Source: Thermoanaerobaculia bacterium (GTDB lineage Bacteria > Acidobacteriota > Thermoanaerobaculia > Multivoradales > J023). From it: DNA of 64,000 nt. Shown one piece after another: positions 8,920-26,003 of this stretch. The DNA is taken from the NCBI GenBank assembly GCA_028066595.1, contig JALCBJ010000002.1:62001-126000 (forward strand). The letters run 5' to 3'. The notes beneath the pieces were generated by a model, which ran no database searches, was not told the origin of the DNA, and was given only the letters and a program-made list of their open reading frames with translations. Made by a program: the position numbers and the translations under genes. Each line of letters begins with the position of its first letter. Position 1 is the stretch's first letter.

Positions 8920-11382
8920 CTAGGCCTCGTCGTCCAGCCGTCGAATGCATACCACGGCTGGACGTGGCGGCGTGTTCGGATCTCCGGCCGGGAAATTCGA
9001 GCCGACGGGGATTTTGCGGGTTTGTTCGAACGGGCGATTGTTCCGGTCGTGGACCACGTGACGCTGTACCTCGAGCTCGCCATCTCGGCGAGTCGCGTCG
9101 TCTTCACCCGGATGTTGGACCGACAGGATCAGCGCCTGACCATCGTCTGAAAAGGTCGGTCCACACAGCTCGGCCTCTATGGGAGCCAGTGCGAAGAGAT
9201 GGGGCAGGCCGGTAGCGGCGCCGCGGGTCGGGAGCATGAACATCGCATTGTTGCCAAACACGCCCGGAAACGTCTTGCCTCCCGGATTGGTCCCGTCGGT
9301 TACAACGCGGGACGTCGGGAAATTTTGAGAGGTCGTCGAGATATCAGTGACGACCCATAGGTTGGCGTCGACGTCGAATACGAGATTGTCGGCGCACGCA
9401 AAGCCACCCCCATGATCGGCTACCTCGCCGGAGCTGATGAACTTTCCCCAAGTGAAGGTGGTGGCTGCGGGATCGGAATCCGCCCCGTCGCCTCCATCTT
9501 CGATCAGTCGATAGATGGCTCCGTATTGGCGGCTGTTCTCCATCGCCGAGTCGGGGAAAATGCGCCGATCCGGTGAGCCGTCGGAAGAGTCTGTGGCATC
9601 GGTGAACGCGATGAACACCGAACGATCGACGGGATGCACCTCGAGATCCTCGGGACGAGCCGTCGGAGTACCGCCGCAAGCGTTGGCCATGAGGAACGCA
9701 TCCATCGCGAGGATTCCGTTGACCAGGCGATGCCACTCGGCCGCGCTCAGGCGGGAGCCCACTCCCGCGTGAGGTCGCACCAGGTCGGCGAGTGTCGAGT
9801 CCTCGAAGCTCTTGCCGGTGAACGATTCGATGATCGAGATCCAATTGTCTACTTCGATGTCCGGCCGGTCTCGGTCCGGATTGCCCACCGAGACCGATCC
9901 GCCGACGAACCGCGAGGGCACCTGCATGTGACCGGAGAAACACTGCTCGGGCTCCGGGCGTCGTAGGGGCGTCTCCGCGTCGAGGGGAATCCAGCGACCC
10001 GTGAAGTCTGGCTCGAAGCGGGCGACGTAGAGCGTTCCCTTCTCCAGCAGACGCGAGGTGTCCGGATCGGACGGGTTCCTCACCACCTCGTCCGAAACGA
10101 ACTTCCAGATGTGTCCACCGCGGCGGTCGTCGCCCATGTAGGCGGCCAGACGCTTCCCTGCCTCGACCCGTAGCGTTACGTTCTCGTGGCGAAATCGTCC
10201 GAGTCCGGTGTGCTTGCGCAGGTGGCCGGTCGTCGGTTCGATCTCGGTCACCCAGCCGAAATGCCGTCCGTCGAGACGATCTTCCAGCAAGTGGCCGTTA
10301 CCGGAGATGTTGGGTGGTACCTCGTTGTCGAAGATGTACAAGCCGTTCACTTTATCTCCGCGTGCGCCATACCAGCTCTTTCGCGATTCGATGAGCCGGC
10401 CTTCGGGGCTGACGTCCTCGTCGACCTCGTTGTAGTAGTTCTCCTCGCATGTGAGGAAAGTTCCCCAGGGCGTGGTGCCACCCGAGCAGTTGGTCATGGT
10501 GCCGTGAGGCTGTCGATCGAAGAGCGGCACCGCCGGGCCGGTGAATCTCGAATGAACCGCCGGTCCGCCAGGAATGTTGTGTCGTCGGAAGGCGCTGATG
10601 CGACGGTGATCGTCGGCGTCGGCGACGACCTCGAACCCACCGTCATCCCGTCGCCGGACCCGCAAGACCGAAACGCCTACTTCGTCGAGGATTCGTTCTG
10701 CGTTGGCCCGCGCCTTCGCCTTGACAGCATCGGGTACGCGGGCCCACTGTTCCGGATCGTTCACATCTACGGCGTTGCCGGCGAAGGCCTCGAAGCTCCA
10801 GCCGTCGATAGAGAAGATCCCTCGTTTGAACATCGGTGGGTCGTTGTGGTCCGCCACGAGACGGAACGTGGGCGGCCGCTGTCCGTAGATCGTCTCGTAC
10901 ACATCGAGCCACGGTCTCGCCGAGACGTATTCGTGGTTGACCAGTAGCCAGAACTGATCTTCTTGATCTGCTACCGGTACGAGGCCGGTGTAGTCACAGT
11001 TGTAGCCGAAACGGATCTGCCGCGTCGGCGAGTCGTCCGGGCCGAAGATGTCGCCGAACCGGGCCAAGACTTCGTACTCGAAGCCCTCCGGCAAGACGAG
11101 GTCGTCGATCACCTCGTACGAAGCCAGTCGGAGACGATCGTCTCCGGCGTCACCCGGATCTCCGGGCAGGGGTACGGGATAAGCCGGTGGCTTCCAGTTG
11201 GGCTTGCCATCGGGTAACACCCAGGCCCGGGAAGAGGGCAGCTCGGCGAGGAGCCTGTTGGAATTCCCGAGGACCAAAGTGGCTGCGCCGGCGCCGACGT
11301 AGCGAAGGAACGTCCGCCGGCTGAAGCCGATCTCGGACGCTGGGTTTCGGGGAGCATCGGATGGGGAGTTCGAGTTCTGCAT
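8920..11382 (-). CDS. PhoX-family phosphatase, Tat-exported (DUF839)
   Basis: 820 residues beginning 'MQNSNSPSDAPRNPASE', chosen because the twin-arginine signal 'SRRTFLRYVGAGAATLVLG' then sits at residues 21-39; the longer frame adds an unlikely extension. The body has the PhoX signatures 'MTNCSGGTTPWGTFLTCEEN', 'GHLRKHTGLGRFRHENVTL' and 'YMGDDRRGGHIWKFVS'. Known PhoX enzymes carry iron and calcium and release phosphate from phosphomonoesters in the periplasm. It would serve phosphate scavenging. No Pho regulator or Pst transporter is adjacent. The region ahead of its start (130 bases) separates it from a divergent secreted protein. Confidence 0.9.
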   Translation of the reverse strand: MQNSNSPSDAPRNPASEIGFSRRTFLRYVGAGAATLVLGNSNRLLAELPSSRAWVLPDGKPNWKPPAYPVPLPGDPGDAGDDRLRLASYEVIDDLVLPEGFEYEVLARFGDIFGPDDSPTRQIRFGYNCDYTGLVPVADQEDQFWLLVNHEYVSARPWLDVYETIYGQRPPTFRLVADHNDPPMFKRGIFSIDGWSFEAFAGNAVDVNDPEQWARVPDAVKAKARANAERILDEVGVSVLRVRRRDDGGFEVVADADDHRRISAFRRHNIPGGPAVHSRFTGPAVPLFDRQPHGTMTNCSGGTTPWGTFLTCEENYYNEVDEDVSPEGRLIESRKSWYGARGDKVNGLYIFDNEVPPNISGNGHLLEDRLDGRHFGWVTEIEPTTGHLRKHTGLGRFRHENVTLRVEAGKRLAAYMGDDRRGGHIWKFVSDEVVRNPSDPDTSRLLEKGTLYVARFEPDFTGRWIPLDAETPLRRPEPEQCFSGHMQVPSRFVGGSVSVGNPDRDRPDIEVDNWISIIESFTGKSFEDSTLADLVRPHAGVGSRLSAAEWHRLVNGILAMDAFLMANACGGTPTARPEDLEVHPVDRSVFIAFTDATDSSDGSPDRRIFPDSAMENSRQYGAIYRLIEDGGDGADSDPAATTFTWGKFISSGEVADHGGGFACADNLVFDVDANLWVVTDISTTSQNFPTSRVVTDGTNPGGKTFPGVFGNNAMFMLPTRGAATGLPHLFALAPIEAELCGPTFSDDGQALILSVQHPGEDDATRRDGELEVQRHVVHDRNNRPFEQTRKIPVGSNFPAGDPNTPPRPAVVCIRRLDDEA

Positions 11383-11512
11383 ATCTATCGCGGGTCGGTT
11401 GGGGTCCGAGCATAGAGGATGGCGAATCGAGGCCGGTAGGGCAGGAATGAAGATCTCATGAATGCCGTGCGCGAAGGTACACTGAGATGACCATGACACC
11501 TGGAGGGACAGC

Positions 11513-12490
11513 GTGAAGCTTACTGCCATCGACTACCCCCGCGCGCTCGGACATCTCGTCGTCGGTTTCCTCGTGACTGGTGCTCTCGGGGTTGCGCCCG
11601 TAGCGTCCCAGGAGTGCTCTAACGTGTCCTATCGTCTTTGGACCCGTGGCGCCGACGAGGTTCGGTACCGCCTCGGCGAGACCGTGGAGATCGAGAGTGG
11701 CCGCGAGGGTCACATTTACCTGCACGTCGATTCGCGCTCCAAGGATCCATACTCCACGAGCGCCGAGGTCGGCTATCCGGAGAAGTACGGCCTCCGAGGC
11801 CGTGCCACGGTAGTCGTTCGCCACGTGAGGATGGAGGCGCAGAGCGGCGAGGACCGCTCGGCGGGCCGCATCCGATTCAACGCGGTCGAGCCCGGCACGA
11901 CGCAGCTTGGATTCCGGCTCGTGGGCGTCCGTTCCCCCGGTCGCCTCGATTTGGTGGCGAACGGTTGCCGTACCGGTGCGATCCCGATCCGCGTGCTACC
12001 CCGTGGCGGGCAAGCCGACCCACCGGCGGACGAAGAGGAACCGGCGGTCTCGGCAGCAGAGGAGCTCGTCGGAGTCCTCTTCACCGCGCTGCTGCGCCGA
12101 GCCGATGTAGGGCGCGCGGATCAGGAGTTCGTCCGCTGGGTCCGTCGCGATTCCCGTGAAGGCCTGCTGCGGGTCGCCGATACGATGGTGAGTTCGGACG
12201 AGTTTCGCAGCAACGCGTTGCGGCGCACCGACGACACCCATGGACGCAACAATCTCGGCAAGCTGCGTCAGCTGTTGCTGGGCGATATGTACCGAGATCT
12301 CTACGGCTACTCCGAACCCGATAGGCAGGGTCGGGAGGACGACCTGCTCGATCTGGAGGACTGTCTGTCGGGGCGACCAGGCAACGAGGCCTGTAGCCGG
12401 CTCGGTCGCGAGCTCGTCAATCGCCGACTCTTCTACGACTACCACCGGGATGCGATCGATGCGCTGTCCGGCCGGCGGGGTCGTCGCTAA
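11513..12490 (+). CDS. Secreted protein with DUF4214-like C-terminal helical domain
   Basis: 325 residues, GTG start with a very good 'GGAGGGA' ribosome binding site. A signal peptide covers about residues 1-32 and ends near 'GVAPVASQ'. Residues 35-165 look like a beta-rich domain with two cysteines ('QECSNVSY', 'ANGCRTG') that may pair. After an acidic Pro linker ('ADPPADEEEP') the C-terminal half reads 'LVGVLFTALLRRADVGRADQ' and later 'VADTMVSSDEFRSNAL', the pattern of the DUF4214 / phycobilisome-linker-like family often found in exported enzymes and S-layer-like proteins. It precedes an ABC exporter by about 30 bases and may share its transcript. Function unknown. Confidence 0.7.
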   Translation: MKLTAIDYPRALGHLVVGFLVTGALGVAPVASQECSNVSYRLWTRGADEVRYRLGETVEIESGREGHIYLHVDSRSKDPYSTSAEVGYPEKYGLRGRATVVVRHVRMEAQSGEDRSAGRIRFNAVEPGTTQLGFRLVGVRSPGRLDLVANGCRTGAIPIRVLPRGGQADPPADEEEPAVSAAEELVGVLFTALLRRADVGRADQEFVRWVRRDSREGLLRVADTMVSSDEFRSNALRRTDDTHGRNNLGKLRQLLLGDMYRDLYGYSEPDRQGREDDLLDLEDCLSGRPGNEACSRLGRELVNRRLFYDYHRDAIDALSGRRGRR

Positions 12491-14339: not shown

Positions 14340-15248
14340 CTAGCGAAAGAACATCCGGAGGCGCTTCTCGCTCATCTCGGCGATGTCGAACAGTACGAGA
14401 TAGTCGATCGTCTTGAATTCGCGGTCGATGGCCGGTGGTCCGCAGATCTTGGCGCCATGGCGTAGATAGGTGCGAAAGAGTCGCGGGATGTCGACCTCGA
14501 AGTCAGGATCCGCGGGAAGCTCTGGTGGATAGCAGGCGAACCCAGGCTGAGGCTCGACGCGCAGCCCATCGACCAATAGGCCGGCACTCTCCAGGTACGC
14601 CATCACTGCCCGACCTTCCACTGGATCCTGAGACGTGAGTGAGCAGCAGCCGAAGAAGTACCGCAGCTGGTTGTGCGCGACGTAGAGCGCGAGGCCCTTC
14701 CAGAGGAGAAACAGTACGTGTTTGTTGCGGTGCTCTTGTGCGACACAAGCGCGGCCTAGCTCGACCGACTCGCCTCGAACGGAGTCGGGCAGGCCCCTGA
14801 GATCGAACTCGGCTTGACTGTAGAAGCCGAGGTTCGCATTGGCCATCGCGCTGGTCTGCATGCGGTAGGTGCCGACGATCTTGCCGTCACGCAGGCTCCT
14901 CACCAATAGGTGATGGCAGACGTCATCGAACGGATCGCGGTCGCGGCCGGTCTGCCACGACTCGTCGAGACCTTCGCTCAGCTCGACATTGAAGACCTCG
15001 AATCGCAGACGAAGAATCTCGTCCAGGGTGCTGCGATCCCGCGCAAAGCTCACTTCATAGTTGCCTTCCTGCAGCACTCTGTCCGGAATCGACTCCGGTG
15101 CGATGGGGTACGTGAGGGCAGACTCTCCCATCGAGGGCTGAACCGTCTCTTTGGGGGGCTGCACTCGGCTCATGCTGGCGTGCTCTTCTCGACCGAGGAT
15201 GGGAGCCCGTGCGACATCCGGGCTTGTCGTCTGGTGATTTTGTTGCAT
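14340..15248 (-). CDS. GNAT-type acyltransferase, OlsB / putative-hemolysin family
   Basis: About 302 residues with the COG3176/OlsB layout: 'LRLRFEVFNVE', 'DPFDDVCHHLLVR', 'KIVGTYRMQTS', 'ESVELGRACVAQEHR' and the closing 'CGPPAIDREFKTIDYLVLFD'. Members transfer an acyl chain from acyl-ACP to an amino acid, giving lyso-ornithine lipids or N-acyl amino acids. No OlsA (second acyltransferase) lies beside it, so the product is unsettled. The N-terminus is uncertain: ATGs encoding 'MQQNHQ' (used here) or 'MSRVQPPKE' 75 bases later are both possible, and the conserved domain starts only near 'DRVLQEGNYEVSF'. It is divergent from a GT-C-like gene. Confidence 0.82.
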   Translation of the reverse strand: MQQNHQTTSPDVARAPILGREEHASMSRVQPPKETVQPSMGESALTYPIAPESIPDRVLQEGNYEVSFARDRSTLDEILRLRFEVFNVELSEGLDESWQTGRDRDPFDDVCHHLLVRSLRDGKIVGTYRMQTSAMANANLGFYSQAEFDLRGLPDSVRGESVELGRACVAQEHRNKHVLFLLWKGLALYVAHNQLRYFFGCCSLTSQDPVEGRAVMAYLESAGLLVDGLRVEPQPGFACYPPELPADPDFEVDIPRLFRTYLRHGAKICGPPAIDREFKTIDYLVLFDIAEMSEKRLRMFFR

Positions 15249-15337
15249 TCTCCCATCATCGATTCCACCCCGATATCTACGATGAAGCATAGATCAAGAT
15301 TCGCGGCGTGGCGGGGCCGGACTGCTAAGGTTTCGCG

Positions 15338-18155: not shown

Positions 18156-18923
18156 CTAGCGGGAAGGAGTCAGTCTCACCAGGGAGTCGAGGTCGGCGTG
18201 TAGCGTCCACACGTCACCTGCGACGAAGACCTCACCGGTGACTTCGATGGGTTCTGCGACGGCGTGCAGAATCCGTTGGTTCACTTCCTCACCCTCGGCG
18301 CCGAGTAGCAAGAGCTGTCGAACCACTTCGTCGCCCTGATGCACCGCGAGGAGTGGCGGGATACCGCCGCGAATGCATAGCGAAGCGCAGGCTCGATGCG
18401 TCTTGCCGTAACCGGGCTTCATGACGCCGAGCCAACACTTCGAATCCACGATCTCGCCGCGCAGAGTGTGTCGACCGAGGGAGACCGGCGACACGCCCTC
18501 ACCGGCGCTCGCCACGGGCTGAACGCTGCCCTCGACGATCTCGACCATCGTCCGCAGGTCGCCACCAGCTTCGGAGCCGCGGTAGATCAAGGTGCCCTGG
18601 AGACGTATCTTCTCGCCTTCGAAGGCGGCCACTTGCTCATCTGCACCGTGTTTACCGAAGGCGACCAGAAGCCAGTGATCGACCTCGCCGGACGGTGTGG
18701 CCACCTCCAGGACGGGATGGGGTATCAGGCGGATCACTCCCTCGACCTCGCTCGGCTGACCAAACTCGAACGTGGCCTCGTCGAACACCGATTGTGACGC
18801 GGCGAGCACGAAGGCCAGTAGGGATGCGACGAACACGAGAGCGACGGCGGTGAAGCGAGCATGGCGTCCGAAGATCGGGGAAGCCCGTTCCTCCCAGCCG
18901 ATGTAGAACTCGTCTCCGTTCAT
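18156..18923 (-). CDS. Membrane-anchored protein with conserved cysteines, last gene of Rieske operon
   Basis: 255 residues: a short cytosolic lead, one membrane helix at about residues 25-43 ('FTAVALVFVASLLAFVLAAS') and a large outside domain. The outside part has two beta-rich halves joined by 'GEIVDSKCWLGVMKPGYGKT' and then 'HRACASLCIRGGIPPLLAV': three cysteines and a histidine in a 30-residue stretch, possibly a metal or cofactor site. I do not recognise a named family. It overlaps the Rieske gene by 4 bases (ATGA), so it is made together with it and probably sits in the same membrane complex. Confidence 0.75.
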   Translation of the reverse strand: MNGDEFYIGWEERASPIFGRHARFTAVALVFVASLLAFVLAASQSVFDEATFEFGQPSEVEGVIRLIPHPVLEVATPSGEVDHWLLVAFGKHGADEQVAAFEGEKIRLQGTLIYRGSEAGGDLRTMVEIVEGSVQPVASAGEGVSPVSLGRHTLRGEIVDSKCWLGVMKPGYGKTHRACASLCIRGGIPPLLAVHQGDEVVRQLLLLGAEGEEVNQRILHAVAEPIEVTGEVFVAGDVWTLHADLDSLVRLTPSR

Positions 18924-19987
18924 GACGGGGTCTCCTGTTCAGCGGGAATACGAGCGGGCTCCGTCCTCGTGCCGGGTGGCAGTGGCGTGGGGTCGACCAG
19001 GATCTCTCCTTCCCGCACCGCGACACGAAAGGTCGGCACCTTCTCCGTGAAAGGTGGTGGTGACGAGCCGTCCTCCGGTCGGTATTGGTAGCCGTGCCAG
19101 GGGCATACGATGCAGCCGTCGACGATCTTGCCCTCGCCCAAGGGCCCGTTCTGGTGTTGGCAGACGTTGGATAGGGCGGAGATCTTGCCGTCGTAGCGGA
19201 AGATCGCTACGCGTTCCCCCGCGAGACATACAGTGACGGCGCGATCCTCGGCGATGTCATCGACGTGTCCGACTTCGACCCAACCGTCCTCGCCCTTCGT
19301 TTCGCTTCCTGCGTCGCCGGCGCTTTCTTTCCATCCCGCCGCGAGGTGCAGTCCCGCGACCCATACCAATCCGAGGCCGAGAAGAGCCGAATAGGCTGTC
19401 GCGCGCTCCTGCTGGAGTGCTCCCAATGCCACGTGGGCGATCAACAGCGCGTAGGCGAAGTAGACGCCCATATGCAGGCGCTTCCACGTGGGTGCCGTCA
19501 GGTTGGCGAGCCAGAAGTCGTGGCTCGTGGCCGCCATGACGAAAAGCACCAGTAGCGCCACGAATCCGAGCGGCTGGAAGGGAAACTGAGCCAGTCCCGA
19601 TTCTGCGACGCCATAGCTTCCGTTGGACACCAGGACGCTGGCCAGCGGATCCAGGACGCCCAACGCGTGGAACTGGATCAGCGACAGCAGTCCGTGTGCG
19701 AGTGCTGCCAAGAACATCGTCACGCCGAGATGCCGACGGTTGTAGAGCAGCGGCAGGAAGCGATGGTCCAGACGGCATAGAGGACCGATCGACAGGATGA
19801 CGTGGAGCAAGAGGAAGGACAGTGTGCCGAAGCCACGGATCAGCGCGGTCTCGGCCGTGGTGCCAGGACGCAACGCTATCGAGGCACCCAGGAAGACCGC
19901 GAGGTAGAGCACGCAGCCCACCGCCAGCGTCAAGTCGTACATTCTCTTCTGGCGGTTCCATTGCACCGCTCGGTAGGAAATGCTCAA
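18920..19987 (-). CDS. Fusion of ferric-reductase-like membrane domain and Rieske [2Fe-2S] domain
   Basis: 355 residues. Residues 15-215 hold about six helices in the ferric-reductase/MsrQ-like style, with membrane histidines that may bind heme: H62, H98 ('LAALAHGLLSL'), H172 and H185 ('RLHMGVYFAYALLIAH'). Residues 235-340 are a Rieske domain with 'CQHQNGPLGEG' (C276, H278) and 'CPWHGYQY' (C295, H298), 16 residues between His and Cys, so all four [2Fe-2S] ligands are present. The protein should pass electrons between a heme b membrane part and an iron-sulfur cluster at one membrane face. Start and stop both overlap neighbours by 4 bases. The electron donor and acceptor are unknown. Confidence 0.85.
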   Translation of the reverse strand: MSISYRAVQWNRQKRMYDLTLAVGCVLYLAVFLGASIALRPGTTAETALIRGFGTLSFLLLHVILSIGPLCRLDHRFLPLLYNRRHLGVTMFLAALAHGLLSLIQFHALGVLDPLASVLVSNGSYGVAESGLAQFPFQPLGFVALLVLFVMAATSHDFWLANLTAPTWKRLHMGVYFAYALLIAHVALGALQQERATAYSALLGLGLVWVAGLHLAAGWKESAGDAGSETKGEDGWVEVGHVDDIAEDRAVTVCLAGERVAIFRYDGKISALSNVCQHQNGPLGEGKIVDGCIVCPWHGYQYRPEDGSSPPPFTEKVPTFRVAVREGEILVDPTPLPPGTRTEPARIPAEQETPS

Positions 19988-20157
19988 GGGTTCGGCCCTC
20001 GATCCGACATATCGGCCGCCTGTTCGGCGAGCTCCGGCGGCAGACCGTCAGCCACCGGCTCGACGCGTGCTGTCAGCGCCGCCCACAGCAGTGCCGGCAG
20101 GAGCAAGGCGAGCAGAGTCCAGAGCCATCGGTGAGTGGTACGCAGTGACCGGATCAC
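19984..20157 (-). CDS. 57-residue single-pass membrane protein
   Basis: Small frame starting at a GTG that overlaps the stop of the gene before it (GTGA) and ending with a 4-base overlap with the Rieske fusion. One hydrophobic helix, 'LWTLLALLLPALLWAALTA', after a basic 'IRSLRTTHR' start, then an acidic tail 'PPELAEQAADMSDRGPNP'. Such small subunits often stabilise membrane redox complexes. There is no homology I can name; the tight overlaps on both sides are the main evidence that it is real. Confidence 0.72.
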   Translation of the reverse strand: MIRSLRTTHRWLWTLLALLLPALLWAALTARVEPVADGLPPELAEQAADMSDRGPNP

Positions 20158-20417
20158 GGCTTGGCCTCCTTGGCATTGCGGTGTGCGTTCTTCTCTTGCG
20201 GAGGGTTGACGACTCCGCGGAGCCAACGCGTAGCCAGTAGCGGCCAGAGGGCGATGGTGCCGGGCAAGATCAACAGACGGAATCCCCAGGTGCCGTCGCG
20301 AGCGACGGGGTCGACGCGTCCGGCGCCACGCCATGCGAAAGGGACGGCGAAGAGCACGCCGGCCAGCAAGTAGAGCTCGAGGGCTCGGGCGAGCCATGTC
20401 GCGATGGTGAGTGACAT
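20154..20417 (-). CDS. 87-residue membrane protein, first gene of Rieske operon
   Basis: Two hydrophobic stretches, 'ALELYLLAGVLFAVPFAW' and 'FRLLILPGTIALWPLLATRW', separated by a short polar loop with 'DPVARDGTWG', then a basic tail rich in Asn/Lys. The ATG with 'GGAGAC' about 7 bases upstream was preferred to a longer frame that would run into the divergent promoter region. It begins a four-gene chain in which every junction is a 4-base overlap. Function unknown; probably a subunit of the same membrane complex. Confidence 0.72.
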   Translation of the reverse strand: MSLTIATWLARALELYLLAGVLFAVPFAWRGAGRVDPVARDGTWGFRLLILPGTIALWPLLATRWLRGVVNPPQEKNAHRNAKEAKP

Positions 20418-20604: not shown

Positions 20605-22245
20605 ATGAACGACCCGAAGAATCCTCGTCCCCACAAGGTGAAGATCGCTGACTGGAACCAACTGGAAGACCGCAGTCCGGCGTATGCGTTGGCAGCCGGG
20701 GTCGATCTGGTGGCGGTCCGTTGGGATGATGATGTATCCGTTCTGTACGGCCGCTGTCTTCACCGCGGTGCGTTGCTCGCCGACGGCCATGTCGAGGGTG
20801 AGGACCTGATCTGCGGCGTGCACCATTGGGACTACCGCTACAAGACCGGCGTGTCCGCCTACAACAACGAGGAAGCGCTGCATCGCTTCTCTGCGTGGAT
20901 CGAAGACGACGCCGTATGGGTCGACGAGGAGGAGATCGCCGCCTGGGAGAAAGAGAATCCCCAGCCCTATGCGCGAGACGAGTATCTCGGCAACTACGCG
21001 GACGTGCACGGCGTTCCGGAAGAGCCGCACAACCAGCTGATTCAGGAATTGGCGAAGAACGGCCTGCGGAAGGTCGGTCACCACGGGCCCGTGCAAGCCA
21101 TGGGCGTACCGCGTCAGGAGCTTCCATCGTGGGACGACCTCCAATTCGTCACCGCGCAGTTGGCGCGCGTCCCGCTGCTCGACGACGAGGACGTGGGTAC
21201 CGAGCTCGTGATCGGGCCCGAGGCGAAGAGGCCACTGGTGCTAAAGATCCCCATCTTTGTCTCGGACATGAGCTTCGGTGCTCTGTCGGAGGAGGCCAAG
21301 GTGGCGTTGGCTCGCGGTGCCGAGCTGGCCGGCACCGGCATCTGCTCGGGCGAAGGAGGCATGCTGCCGGACGAGCAGACCGCCAACTCGCGTTATTTCT
21401 ACGAGCTGGCCTCGGCACGCTTCGGCTTCTCCATGGACAAGCTGAAGCGGGTGCAGGCGTTCCATTTCAAAGGCGGGCAAGGCGCAAAGACGGGCACGGG
21501 TGGCCATCTCCCGGGTAACAAAGTCAAGGGCAAGATCGCCGACGTACGAGGTCTCGAACCGGGTCAGTCGGCGGTATCGCCCTCACGTTTTCCCGACTGG
21601 AGTCATACCTCGGACTTCCGCGACTTCTCGGAGCAGGTGCGCGATGAGACCGGCGGAATCCCGATCGGCTTCAAGCTGTCCGCCCAGCACATCGAAGACG
21701 ACATCGACGCAGCTCTGGACATCGGTTGTGATTACGTGATTCTCGATGGTCGGGGCGGCGGCACGGGGGCGGCGCCCCTGATCTTTCGCGACCACATCTC
21801 CGTGCCTACGTTGCCGGCCCTGGCTCGTGCTCGCCGTCACCTCGACCGTCGCGGCAAGTCCGGCTCCATGACGCTGATCATCACCGGCGGACTGCGCACC
21901 CCAGCAGACTTCGCCAAGGCACTGGCTCTAGGAGCCGATGGGATCGCCGTGTCGAATTCTGCGATCCAGGCCATCGGCTGCCTCGGCATGCGCGCCTGCC
22001 ATACGAACAACTGTCCGGTGGGGATTGCTACCCAGAAGGAGAACCTCCGAGAGCGTCTCGACGTCGCGGTATCCGCCAAACGCCTGGCGAACTTCTTCGA
22101 GGCCTCCGTCGAGCTGATGAAGCTCCTGGCACGTGCCTGTGGGCACAGGCATCTGAATCAGTTCCGCCTTTCCGACCTCACCACTTGGAAGCGTGACGTG
22201 GCCCATCTGACGGGAGTCGAATACGGGGGCGTGGTCTCGCTTTGA
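20605..22245 (+). CDS. Fusion of N-terminal Rieske domain with glutamate-synthase FMN domain
   Basis: 546 residues from the ATG with 'CGGAGAG' upstream. Residues 12-105 are a Rieske domain: 'GRCLHRGALL' (C51, H53) and 'CGVHHWDYRY' (C70, H73), with 16 residues between His and Cys. Residues 150-540 are the FMN-binding domain of the large glutamate synthase subunit: 'FVSDMSFGALSEEAK', 'HFKGGQGAKTGTGGHLPG', 'ILDGRGGGTGAAP' and the [3Fe-4S] cysteines C459, C465 and C470 in 'CLGMRACHTNNCPVG'. The glutaminase domain of GltB is absent, so ammonia or another nitrogen source would be needed if it makes glutamate at all. The 2Fe-2S, 3Fe-4S and FMN set suggests an electron-transfer enzyme fed by the divergent membrane operon; this is inference. 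Confidence 0.88.
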   Translation: MNDPKNPRPHKVKIADWNQLEDRSPAYALAAGVDLVAVRWDDDVSVLYGRCLHRGALLADGHVEGEDLICGVHHWDYRYKTGVSAYNNEEALHRFSAWIEDDAVWVDEEEIAAWEKENPQPYARDEYLGNYADVHGVPEEPHNQLIQELAKNGLRKVGHHGPVQAMGVPRQELPSWDDLQFVTAQLARVPLLDDEDVGTELVIGPEAKRPLVLKIPIFVSDMSFGALSEEAKVALARGAELAGTGICSGEGGMLPDEQTANSRYFYELASARFGFSMDKLKRVQAFHFKGGQGAKTGTGGHLPGNKVKGKIADVRGLEPGQSAVSPSRFPDWSHTSDFRDFSEQVRDETGGIPIGFKLSAQHIEDDIDAALDIGCDYVILDGRGGGTGAAPLIFRDHISVPTLPALARARRHLDRRGKSGSMTLIITGGLRTPADFAKALALGADGIAVSNSAIQAIGCLGMRACHTNNCPVGIATQKENLRERLDVAVSAKRLANFFEASVELMKLLARACGHRHLNQFRLSDLTTWKRDVAHLTGVEYGGVVSL

Positions 22246-24389: not shown

Positions 24390-26003
24390 ATGTATCGTGA
24401 CACTGGTTTCTTTTCGCGGTCTGCTTTGTCTGGACGCTTTGCAATGGCGGTCTGGATCTTGGCGGTCCTTCTTCTCGGTGCGGTATTCGTATCGTCTTCG
24501 GCAGCGAACGACGTCGAGCTCGGCAAGGAGGTCTCGGTACGCGAGCGCCTCGTCGACGGTGACGAGCAGGTTCTCGATCGCGGTGCGTTGATTCAGCAGG
24601 GCGCAACTCTTTTCAACGCCATGTGGACATCTCAGGAGGGCGGCGGCCGTCCCCTGACCACCGGCACCGGTGGCGACTTGGCCGATCCGTCGAGCCCGCT
24701 GGTGTTCCCGCGCAACGCCAACCGGATCTCGGCCCCCGACGCCAACTCCTGTGGCGGCTGTCACAATCTGCCGCGCTCTGGTGGTGGTGGCGATATCGTC
24801 ACCAATGTCTTCGTTCTCGGTCAGCGGTTCGACCACGTTACGTTCGACCATGCAGACGCGATCACCGGTCGTGGCGCGCTCGACGAGGACGGCAAGTTTC
24901 CGACGCTCGACGAGATCGCCAATAGTCGCGCCACTCTGGGTATGTTCGGTTCCGGATATGTCGAGATGCTGGCGCGCCAGATGTCTACCGAGCTGCGGGC
25001 CATCGCCGGCGGGATGGCACCAGGAACCAGTGCGGAGCTAGTGACCAAGGGTGTGTCGTTCGGCACGCTCGTACGAAACGCAGACGGTACCTGGGACACT
25101 GCGGGAATCAGTGGACTGCCGCCCGCTTCTGCGGCTTCTGCAGGGCAGGAAGCGCCGAATCTGATCATCCGTCCGTTCCATCAGGTAGGTGCGGTGATCT
25201 CGGTGCGTGAGTTCACCAACAACGCGTTCAACCATCACCACGGCATCCAGTCGTCGGAGCGTTTCGGCGACGGCACCGATCCCGACGGCGACGGATTCAC
25301 TGATGAGTTGAGCCGTCCAGAGGTCACAGCCGCAACGATTTACCAGACCACCCTCGCGGTCCCGGGTCGGCGCATCCCACGCTTCCGCCCCGTGGAAGAA
25401 GCGGTACTGAACGGCGAGGACAAGTTCGTGCAGATCGGCTGTGGCGGGTGCCATGTCCCGCAGCTGCCGCTGGACAACTGGGGGTGGGTCTACATCGAGC
25501 CGAATCCGTTCAATCCGCCCGGCAACGCTGGCCCCGGCGACATTCCCGAGATGAAGATCAATTTGAACAGCCAGTACCTGCCTCAACCCAGGCTGCGTCA
25601 GCAGGGAGACGTCACCTGGGTGCCGGCATACACCGACCTCAAGTTGCACGACATCACGACCGGACCGGATGATCCGAACTGTGAGGAGCTCGACCAGCAT
25701 CGTGCTGGCACTCCCGAGTTCTTCGACGGCAACTGCAAGTTCCTGACGAAGAAGCTCTGGGGTGTAGCCAACGAGCCACCGTATTTCCATCACGGCAAGT
25801 ACATGACGATGCGTGAGGCCATCGAAGCGCATGCGGGTGAGGCTCAATCCTCTGCGGATGCATGGGCGGCCCTCGATGACTACGACCGCGATTCGATCAT
25901 CGAGTTCCTGAAGACCCTTCAGCTTCTGCCAGAGGGAACAAAGGACCTCGTCATCGACGAGAAGGGTCGGTCGCGTGAGTGGCCACCTGCCTGGGCCAAC
26001 TGA
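24390..26003 (+). CDS. Secreted di-heme cytochrome c oxidoreductase (DHOR / peroxidase-like)
   Basis: 537 residues with signal anchor 'FAMAVWILAVLLLGAVFVSS' and a 'GGAGG' ribosome binding site. Two CGGCH heme c motifs (C121-H125 and C351-H355) give one heme in each half, as in the thiol oxidoreductase/di-heme peroxidase families. A calcium-type loop 'DGTDPDGDGFTDE' at about residues 294-306 recalls thrombospondin type 3 or EF-hand loops. The end 'LDDYDRDSIIEFLKTLQLLP' is the usual C-terminal helix. It should act in the periplasm. A possible -10 (TATACT) lies 68 bases ahead of the start, without a good -35. The gene ends at a clear intrinsic terminator. Confidence 0.88.
   Translation: MYRDTGFFSRSALSGRFAMAVWILAVLLLGAVFVSSSAANDVELGKEVSVRERLVDGDEQVLDRGALIQQGATLFNAMWTSQEGGGRPLTTGTGGDLADPSSPLVFPRNANRISAPDANSCGGCHNLPRSGGGGDIVTNVFVLGQRFDHVTFDHADAITGRGALDEDGKFPTLDEIANSRATLGMFGSGYVEMLARQMSTELRAIAGGMAPGTSAELVTKGVSFGTLVRNADGTWDTAGISGLPPASAASAGQEAPNLIIRPFHQVGAVISVREFTNNAFNHHHGIQSSERFGDGTDPDGDGFTDELSRPEVTAATIYQTTLAVPGRRIPRFRPVEEAVLNGEDKFVQIGCGGCHVPQLPLDNWGWVYIEPNPFNPPGNAGPGDIPEMKINLNSQYLPQPRLRQQGDVTWVPAYTDLKLHDITTGPDDPNCEELDQHRAGTPEFFDGNCKFLTKKLWGVANEPPYFHHGKYMTMREAIEAHAGEAQSSADAWAALDDYDRDSIIEFLKTLQLLPEGTKDLVIDEKGRSREWPPAWAN

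Follow-up and report, generated by a model that had tools for sequence, protein, structure and literature searches.

A conserved four-gene operon pairing a ferric-reductase-type heme domain with a Rieske domain, a probable electron conduit across the inner membrane

What a bacterium does with a Rieske domain fused to a heme-type membrane domain, and with which proteins this fusion works, is the question raised by a small operon in the window (the stretch of 64,000 nucleotides from a Thermoanaerobaculia bacterium analysed here). The minus strand holds four frames between nt 18156 and 20417, in the order P1-P2-P3-P4. P1 (nt 20154..20417, minus strand) encodes a membrane protein of 87 residues, and P2 (nt 19984..20157, minus strand) a single-pass protein of 57 residues with a GTG start. 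P3 (nt 18920..19987, minus strand) starts with TTG and encodes 355 residues, with the heme domain at about residues 1–220 and the Rieske [2Fe-2S] domain at about residues 236–331. P4 (nt 18156..18923, minus strand) encodes 255 residues, comprising an N-terminal membrane anchor and two tandem OB folds. RNA folding 3′ of P4 showed nothing remarkable.

A sequence-only reading of the locus had described overlaps of GTGA, ATGA and ATGA between the genes and took such strict coupling to suggest a fixed stoichiometry. The 4-base overlap is present at all three junctions, but the middle one is TTGA, because the start codon of P3 is TTG. This start is supported by the homologs of other genomes, which begin at the same residue; they also commonly share a 4-base overlap with the preceding gene at the equivalent start. 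Overlaps of this length are common in bacterial operons, and alone they do not show stoichiometry, so that part of the reading is not supported in the form given. Yet in distant genomes from the best 80 of at least 574 loci, a spacing of −4 is the commonest at each junction (57, 42 and 30 of about 73–78 loci), and its recurrence together with the conserved gene order exceeds chance.

The loci were collected by scanning named genomes with a P3 alignment. The scan confirmed at least 574 P3 stretches, and the locus counts given here use the best 80 of them. All four genes are found at 77 of these 80 loci. By record title, which may be wrong for metagenomes, the 80 belong to Acidobacteriota, Planctomycetota, Verrucomicrobiota, Bacteroidota, Cyanobacteriota, Myxococcota, Calditrichota, KSB1 and others, and they include the isolates Sulfidibacter corallicola, Fibrisoma limi, Aquimarina spongiae and Moorena bouillonii. 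Across these many phyla the P3 of the window shares 53–66% identity with those of the best 80 loci. In most of 59 related genomes P3 and P4 homologs adjoin, and P1 and P2 homologs usually lie 5′ of P3-P4 where the flanks could be read. The P1 profile yields one strong match per genome besides marginal ones, mostly at the P3 locus. P1 and P2 are real genes. The synteny and profile searches proposed with the sequence-only reading bear it out in this respect: the order P1-P2-P3-P4 recurs at 76 of the best 80 loci as well as in most P3-carrying genomes of the window's taxonomic order, and homologs of the small proteins stand in that order elsewhere, contrary to the objection raised by the reading itself.

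The distribution of P3 is uneven. In its tree Bacteroidota and Cyanobacteriota form clean groups, Acidobacteriota and Planctomycetota are mixed, and within the window's own phylum the gene occurs in 14 genomes out of 149. The mixing and the patchy presence suggest losses, and possibly transfer.

Do the four proteins work together? P1 and P2 are naturally fused in a single frame at three loci (L152, L081 and L082), and P3 and P4 at seven (L100, L104, L108, L112, L144, L012 and L015). An apparent P1+P2 fusion in L095 was dropped, its P1 match being weak and partial. When fusions between proteins recur and their synteny holds across phyla, the proteins usually act in concert. Because of the two kinds of fusion and the synteny across phyla, P1–P4 likely form one membrane complex, and the earlier view of a membrane redox operon encoding very probably a single complex is upheld. 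The four genes might also be mere neighbours that share no complex, as 4-base overlaps are common in operons; the order conserved across many phyla and the pairwise fusions make this very unlikely.

P3 matches two Pfam models, Ferric_reduct (PF01794) with 47.0 bits against a cut-off of 28 and Rieske with 66.2 bits against a cut-off of 20.3, confirming that a heme-type membrane domain is joined to a complete Rieske domain. These are the only Pfam models that match, and Pfam finds no FMN-binding domain in P3. Four histidines of the membrane domain (H86, H98, H172 and H185) and the Rieske ligands C276, H278, C295 and H298 are invariant in all 81 rows of the alignment and are also kept in Rhizobium. 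H107 is likewise invariant in the 81 rows but is not kept in Rhizobium. No match to the transmembrane part of P3 was found among PDB sequences. Most of the membrane domain can be aligned with E. coli MsrQ, which places H98, H172 and H185 of P3 at H91, H151 and H164 of MsrQ, and R84 at R77, the conserved arginine before the first ligand. Binding of a heme b by H98 and H185 would follow by homology. A second heme at H86 and H172 is possible and uncertain, because the H86–H98 spacing departs from that of NOX and Arg84 occupies the canonical position as in MsrQ and STEAP.

On which side of the membrane would the Rieske domain lie? In the 81 rows the P3 loops carry on average 3.5, 4.2, 1.6 and 3.1 Arg+Lys on one side and 0.3, 0.6 and 0.2 on the other, and no row has a twin-arginine motif before the last helix. 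From these charge counts, read by the positive-inside rule, and from the missing motif, P3 is predicted to be N-in/C-in. Its Rieske domain would then be cytoplasmic, whereas that of bc1 lies on the other side of the membrane. A Tat-exported Rieske domain, as known from actinobacterial QcrA (PMC5449189), was considered and rejected on the absence of the motif from all 81 rows. The motifs of the P3 Rieske domain read CQHQNG...CPWHGY, and its closest solved relatives are the ferredoxins of biphenyl and naphthalene dioxygenases. Rieske domains of the dioxygenase-ferredoxin kind belong to the low-potential class. The P3 cytoplasmic loops FLPLLYNRRHLG, ATSHDF and WK.LH are nearly invariant.

The structural model of P4 (pLDDT 91) shows a helix that would serve as the anchor, together with two OB folds, and the protein is predicted to be periplasmic. 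The sequence-only reading had noticed three cysteines and a histidine within 30 residues of this anchored protein; C163, H176, C179 and C183 in fact lie within 21 residues of the second OB domain, together with M168. All five are invariant in 61 of 61 sequences and are kept in Rhizobium too. The site could bind a metal or cycle thiols; it is likely a metal or thiol redox centre or a docking site. P4 belongs to no family of Pfam or NCBIfam, and its profile found nothing significant among PDB sequences. One relative matched DUF5818 at E 0.027, which is a lead only. Comparison of the model with PDB structures recovered no known redox protein, and this counts against a conduit. The matches were OB-fold proteins only, with Z at most 7.2 (nucleic-acid-binding SSBs, synthetase domains and potempin inhibitors); they were rejected as a functional clue, since a common fold is shared here without functional meaning.

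P1 has a long helix at its N-terminus and another hydrophobic segment that is broken by proline, with the motif RxDP...GFRLLILPG..ALWP...RW..G..PP.E.NAHR. P2 carries the motif MIxxLRRRHR. Neither matches a family in Pfam or NCBIfam. The 57-residue P2 of the sequence-only reading is a real frame, but it is the short form of a protein of bimodal length, for 30 of the best 80 loci encode a short P2 and 50 a long one of 124–185 residues. The extra C-terminal part of the long form is predicted to be a beta domain outside the membrane. A model of the P1–P2 fusion gave beta-sandwich matches, among them the copper- or iron-binding proteins PmoD, FetP and P19; with Z under 6 these were not trusted.

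The gene divergent from the operon (nt 20608..22245, plus strand) encodes a Rieske domain with a glutamate-synthase-type FMN domain. Its product aligns with GltB-type enzymes, including the C-x5-C-x4-C region. A second kind of Rieske-fused enzyme is a pyruvate-oxidase/PoxB-like TPP enzyme with an N-terminal Rieske domain (L163:10345-12315, L074:11534-13555 and L079:10835-12796). The best solved relative of its TPP part is PoxB, and its Rieske domain shares about 38% identity with that of P3. In the window's own genome this gene (L163:10345-12315, contig C132) lies away from the operon. Within about 8 kb of P3, a Rieske-glutamate-synthase-like gene occurs at 13 and a Rieske-TPP gene at 9 of the best 80 loci. 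If such a gene had one copy and lay anywhere in a genome of 5 Mb by chance, we estimate that about 0.3 would be expected, with relatedness not corrected for. These two Rieske-fused proteins are put forward as candidate partners, although they adjoin the operon in a minority of loci only, which counts against such a role.

Other genes recur near the operon without a clear functional link to it. The Acetyltransf_5 (GNAT) protein at nt 14340..15290 (minus strand) has relatives near the operon at 25 of the best 80 loci, is 55% identical here, and may not belong to the complex. A DinB-like protein recurs at 20 of the best 80 loci and an alpha/beta-hydrolase/VTT protein at 31. The latter (L080:10609-13170 and relatives, 31 loci) is a large protein in which an alpha/beta hydrolase is combined with a VTT membrane domain and a part like ATP-grasp; it recurs in the company of the DinB-like and GNAT proteins. 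Within the window, a di-haem oxidoreductase/cytochrome c peroxidase-like gene (Pfam DHOR, nt 24390-26003) lies a few kb from the operon, and nt 8920-11529 encode an alkaline phosphatase of the PhoX type that may carry a Tat signal. The same genome holds a second ferric-reductase-domain gene (L002, contig C132:84015-87371). It adjoins a cytochrome-c-peroxidase-like gene and a gene for a His/Gly-rich repeat protein, and the Rieske-TPP gene is about 4.5 kb away.

Five Rhizobium plasmids carry P3 with 47–50% identity. In the Rhizobium binae region P1, P2 and P4 are recognisable beside it, and two further annotated Rhizobium regions show the same arrangement. The records annotate the products only as 'Rieske 2Fe-2S domain-containing protein' or 'hypothetical protein'. 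On three of the plasmids (L166, L167 and L168) a fifth small membrane protein is encoded 3′ of the operon, and the genes opposite the operon encode an acetolactate-synthase-like TPP enzyme, an OpgC-domain protein and a CoA transferase; ECF sigma/NrsF genes are near it in two of the three. One strain with the operon on a plasmid is Rhizobium leguminosarum bv. trifolii WSM1689. Since Rhizobium carries the set on plasmids, the system is open to genetics now.

We propose, with a probability of about 0.62, that the four genes specify a single complex of the inner membrane, a conduit for electrons from Rieske cluster to heme b to P4, probably outward. The cytoplasmic Rieske [2Fe-2S] cluster of P3, of low-potential type, would exchange electrons with a heme b held in the six-helix ferric-reductase-type domain, and the heme would pass them on to the membrane-anchored periplasmic P4. 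P1 and P2 would be small structural or assembly subunits. The direction would most likely be from cytoplasm to periplasm, as it is in the rest of the ferric-reductase superfamily. Through the Rieske domain, the Rieske-fused pyruvate-oxidase-like and glutamate-synthase-like enzymes would supply electrons or take them up. What was computed is the order of the genes, their fusions, the domains and conserved residues, and the predicted topology and fold; we infer heme and cluster binding, the direction, the P4 cofactor and the partner enzymes.

Electrons might also flow inward, or in a quinone-linked manner. The complex would receive them from a donor in the periplasm, by way of P4, or from the quinone pool, and the cytoplasmic Rieske domain would hand them to soluble Rieske-coupled enzymes, for instance the glutamate-synthase-like FMN protein. 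That divergently adjacent enzyme would, from what is known of its family, normally need reducing electrons, and the near-invariant cytoplasmic loops of P3 fit a docking or quinone site. Characterised members of the ferric-reductase superfamily send electrons outward, however, and the pyruvate-oxidase-like neighbour would be a donor and not an acceptor, which leaves inward or quinone-linked flow unlikely. A bc1/b6f-like quinol oxidase that uses its Rieske domain in the usual manner would account for a Rieske domain beside a heme b membrane domain. It is the least probable of the readings, scarcely to be credited, given that the P3 Rieske domain is of dioxygenase-ferredoxin type, is predicted to be cytoplasmic and lacks the extra disulfide cysteines of the bc1 Rieske, and that the set includes no cytochrome b or c1 gene, as the sequence-only reading had observed.

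A periplasmic system comparable to MsrPQ or DsbD, acting in repair or as a metal or thiol reductase, is a more specific form of the trans-membrane conduit and overlaps it. P3 would deliver electrons to P4 and P4 to an oxidised metal, disulfide or side chain, in a stress or metal role. The MsrQ-like membrane domain of P3 and the three invariant cysteines of P4 point in this direction, as do the genes within about 10 kb of the Rhizobium set (dsbD/thioredoxin/dsbA, ECF sigma-NrsF, DUF1223, CopD and peroxiredoxin-like) and the DoxX- and YHS-like families that recur near other loci. Yet no MsrP-type molybdoenzyme was recognised among the clustered recurrent neighbours, and the Rhizobium stress genes are not conserved beside the operon in other phyla. 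We regard this specialised role as possible, at less than even odds, and hold to the general conduit with probably outward flow.

In the literature outside subscription journals, text searches found no description of the four-gene system or of a Rieske-fused pyruvate oxidase, and the conserved complex and its spread are apparently undescribed. Here, then, is a strongly conserved redox system, with at least 574 P3 stretches, that apparently has neither a name nor an assigned function, although its carriers include cultured Aquimarina, Fibrisoma, Moorena and Sulfidibacter strains as well as Rhizobium plasmids. The pairing of Rieske and ferric reductase domains is not wholly new, because the survey of Zhang et al. 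2013 (PMC3591440), the only source for it that these searches found, lists a bacterial FRD architecture, M4, with FMN and Rieske modules. As the text of the survey lists it, M4 would differ from P3 in the FMN module, which Pfam does not find in P3, and that text names no operon, partners or function for M4.

The set fits none of the respiratory complexes compared, in agreement with the sequence-only reading; Pfam and NCBIfam place only the two domains of P3. Like bc1 and b6f it would unite a heme b and a Rieske cluster in one membrane complex. The bc1/b6f Rieske is a high-potential type with the motifs CxHxGC...CPCHGS, whose extra cysteine in each motif P3 does not have; moreover, bc1/b6f use another cytochrome family and contain c1 or f, which the set lacks. 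By Rieske type and predicted side the set is not a bc1 complex. The Rieske-TPP enzyme differs from the pyruvate:quinone oxidoreductase PoxB in its N-terminal Rieske domain, and it ends near PoxB residue 529 of 572, without the C-terminal tail of PoxB.

MsrQ (YedZ), of the methionine sulfoxide reductase MsrPQ, resembles P3 in its six-helix heme b domain with aligned histidines and arginine, and it serves a periplasmic partner, as P3 is proposed to serve P4. P3 has in addition the invariant His86, the fused Rieske domain and the partners P1, P2 and P4. It reaches 29.6 bits with the MsrQ model NF003831 (NCBIfam), below the equivalog cut-off of 130, and by this score it is not MsrQ.

The NAD(P)H oxidases and ferric reductases of the NOX/FRE group, including the bacterial SpNOX, likewise fuse a heme domain to a cytoplasmic domain for electron input. 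Their input is a FAD/NAD(P)H dehydrogenase, whereas that of P3 would be a Rieske [2Fe-2S] domain, accompanied by extra subunits. According to the survey text, the canonical NOX/FRE heme histidines are 14 apart in TM3 and 13 apart in TM5 (PMC3591440). The TM5 pair of P3 is 13 apart; its TM3 pair, H86–H98, is 12 apart (14 in NOX2), and Arg84 replaces the canonical first heme histidine of NOX. By domain content and ligand spacing, P3 is not a NOX/FRE protein. The operon might even represent a new class of trans-membrane redox complex. Its cytoplasmic Rieske domain would stand in for the NOX flavin dehydrogenase, and the complex would be a hub at which Rieske-tagged soluble enzymes, the pyruvate-oxidase-like TPP enzyme and the glutamate-synthase-like flavoprotein, trade electrons with the membrane and with a new periplasmic OB-fold redox protein; this larger claim is doubtful. 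The proposed electron transfer is of the ferric-reductase-superfamily type, in a new form.
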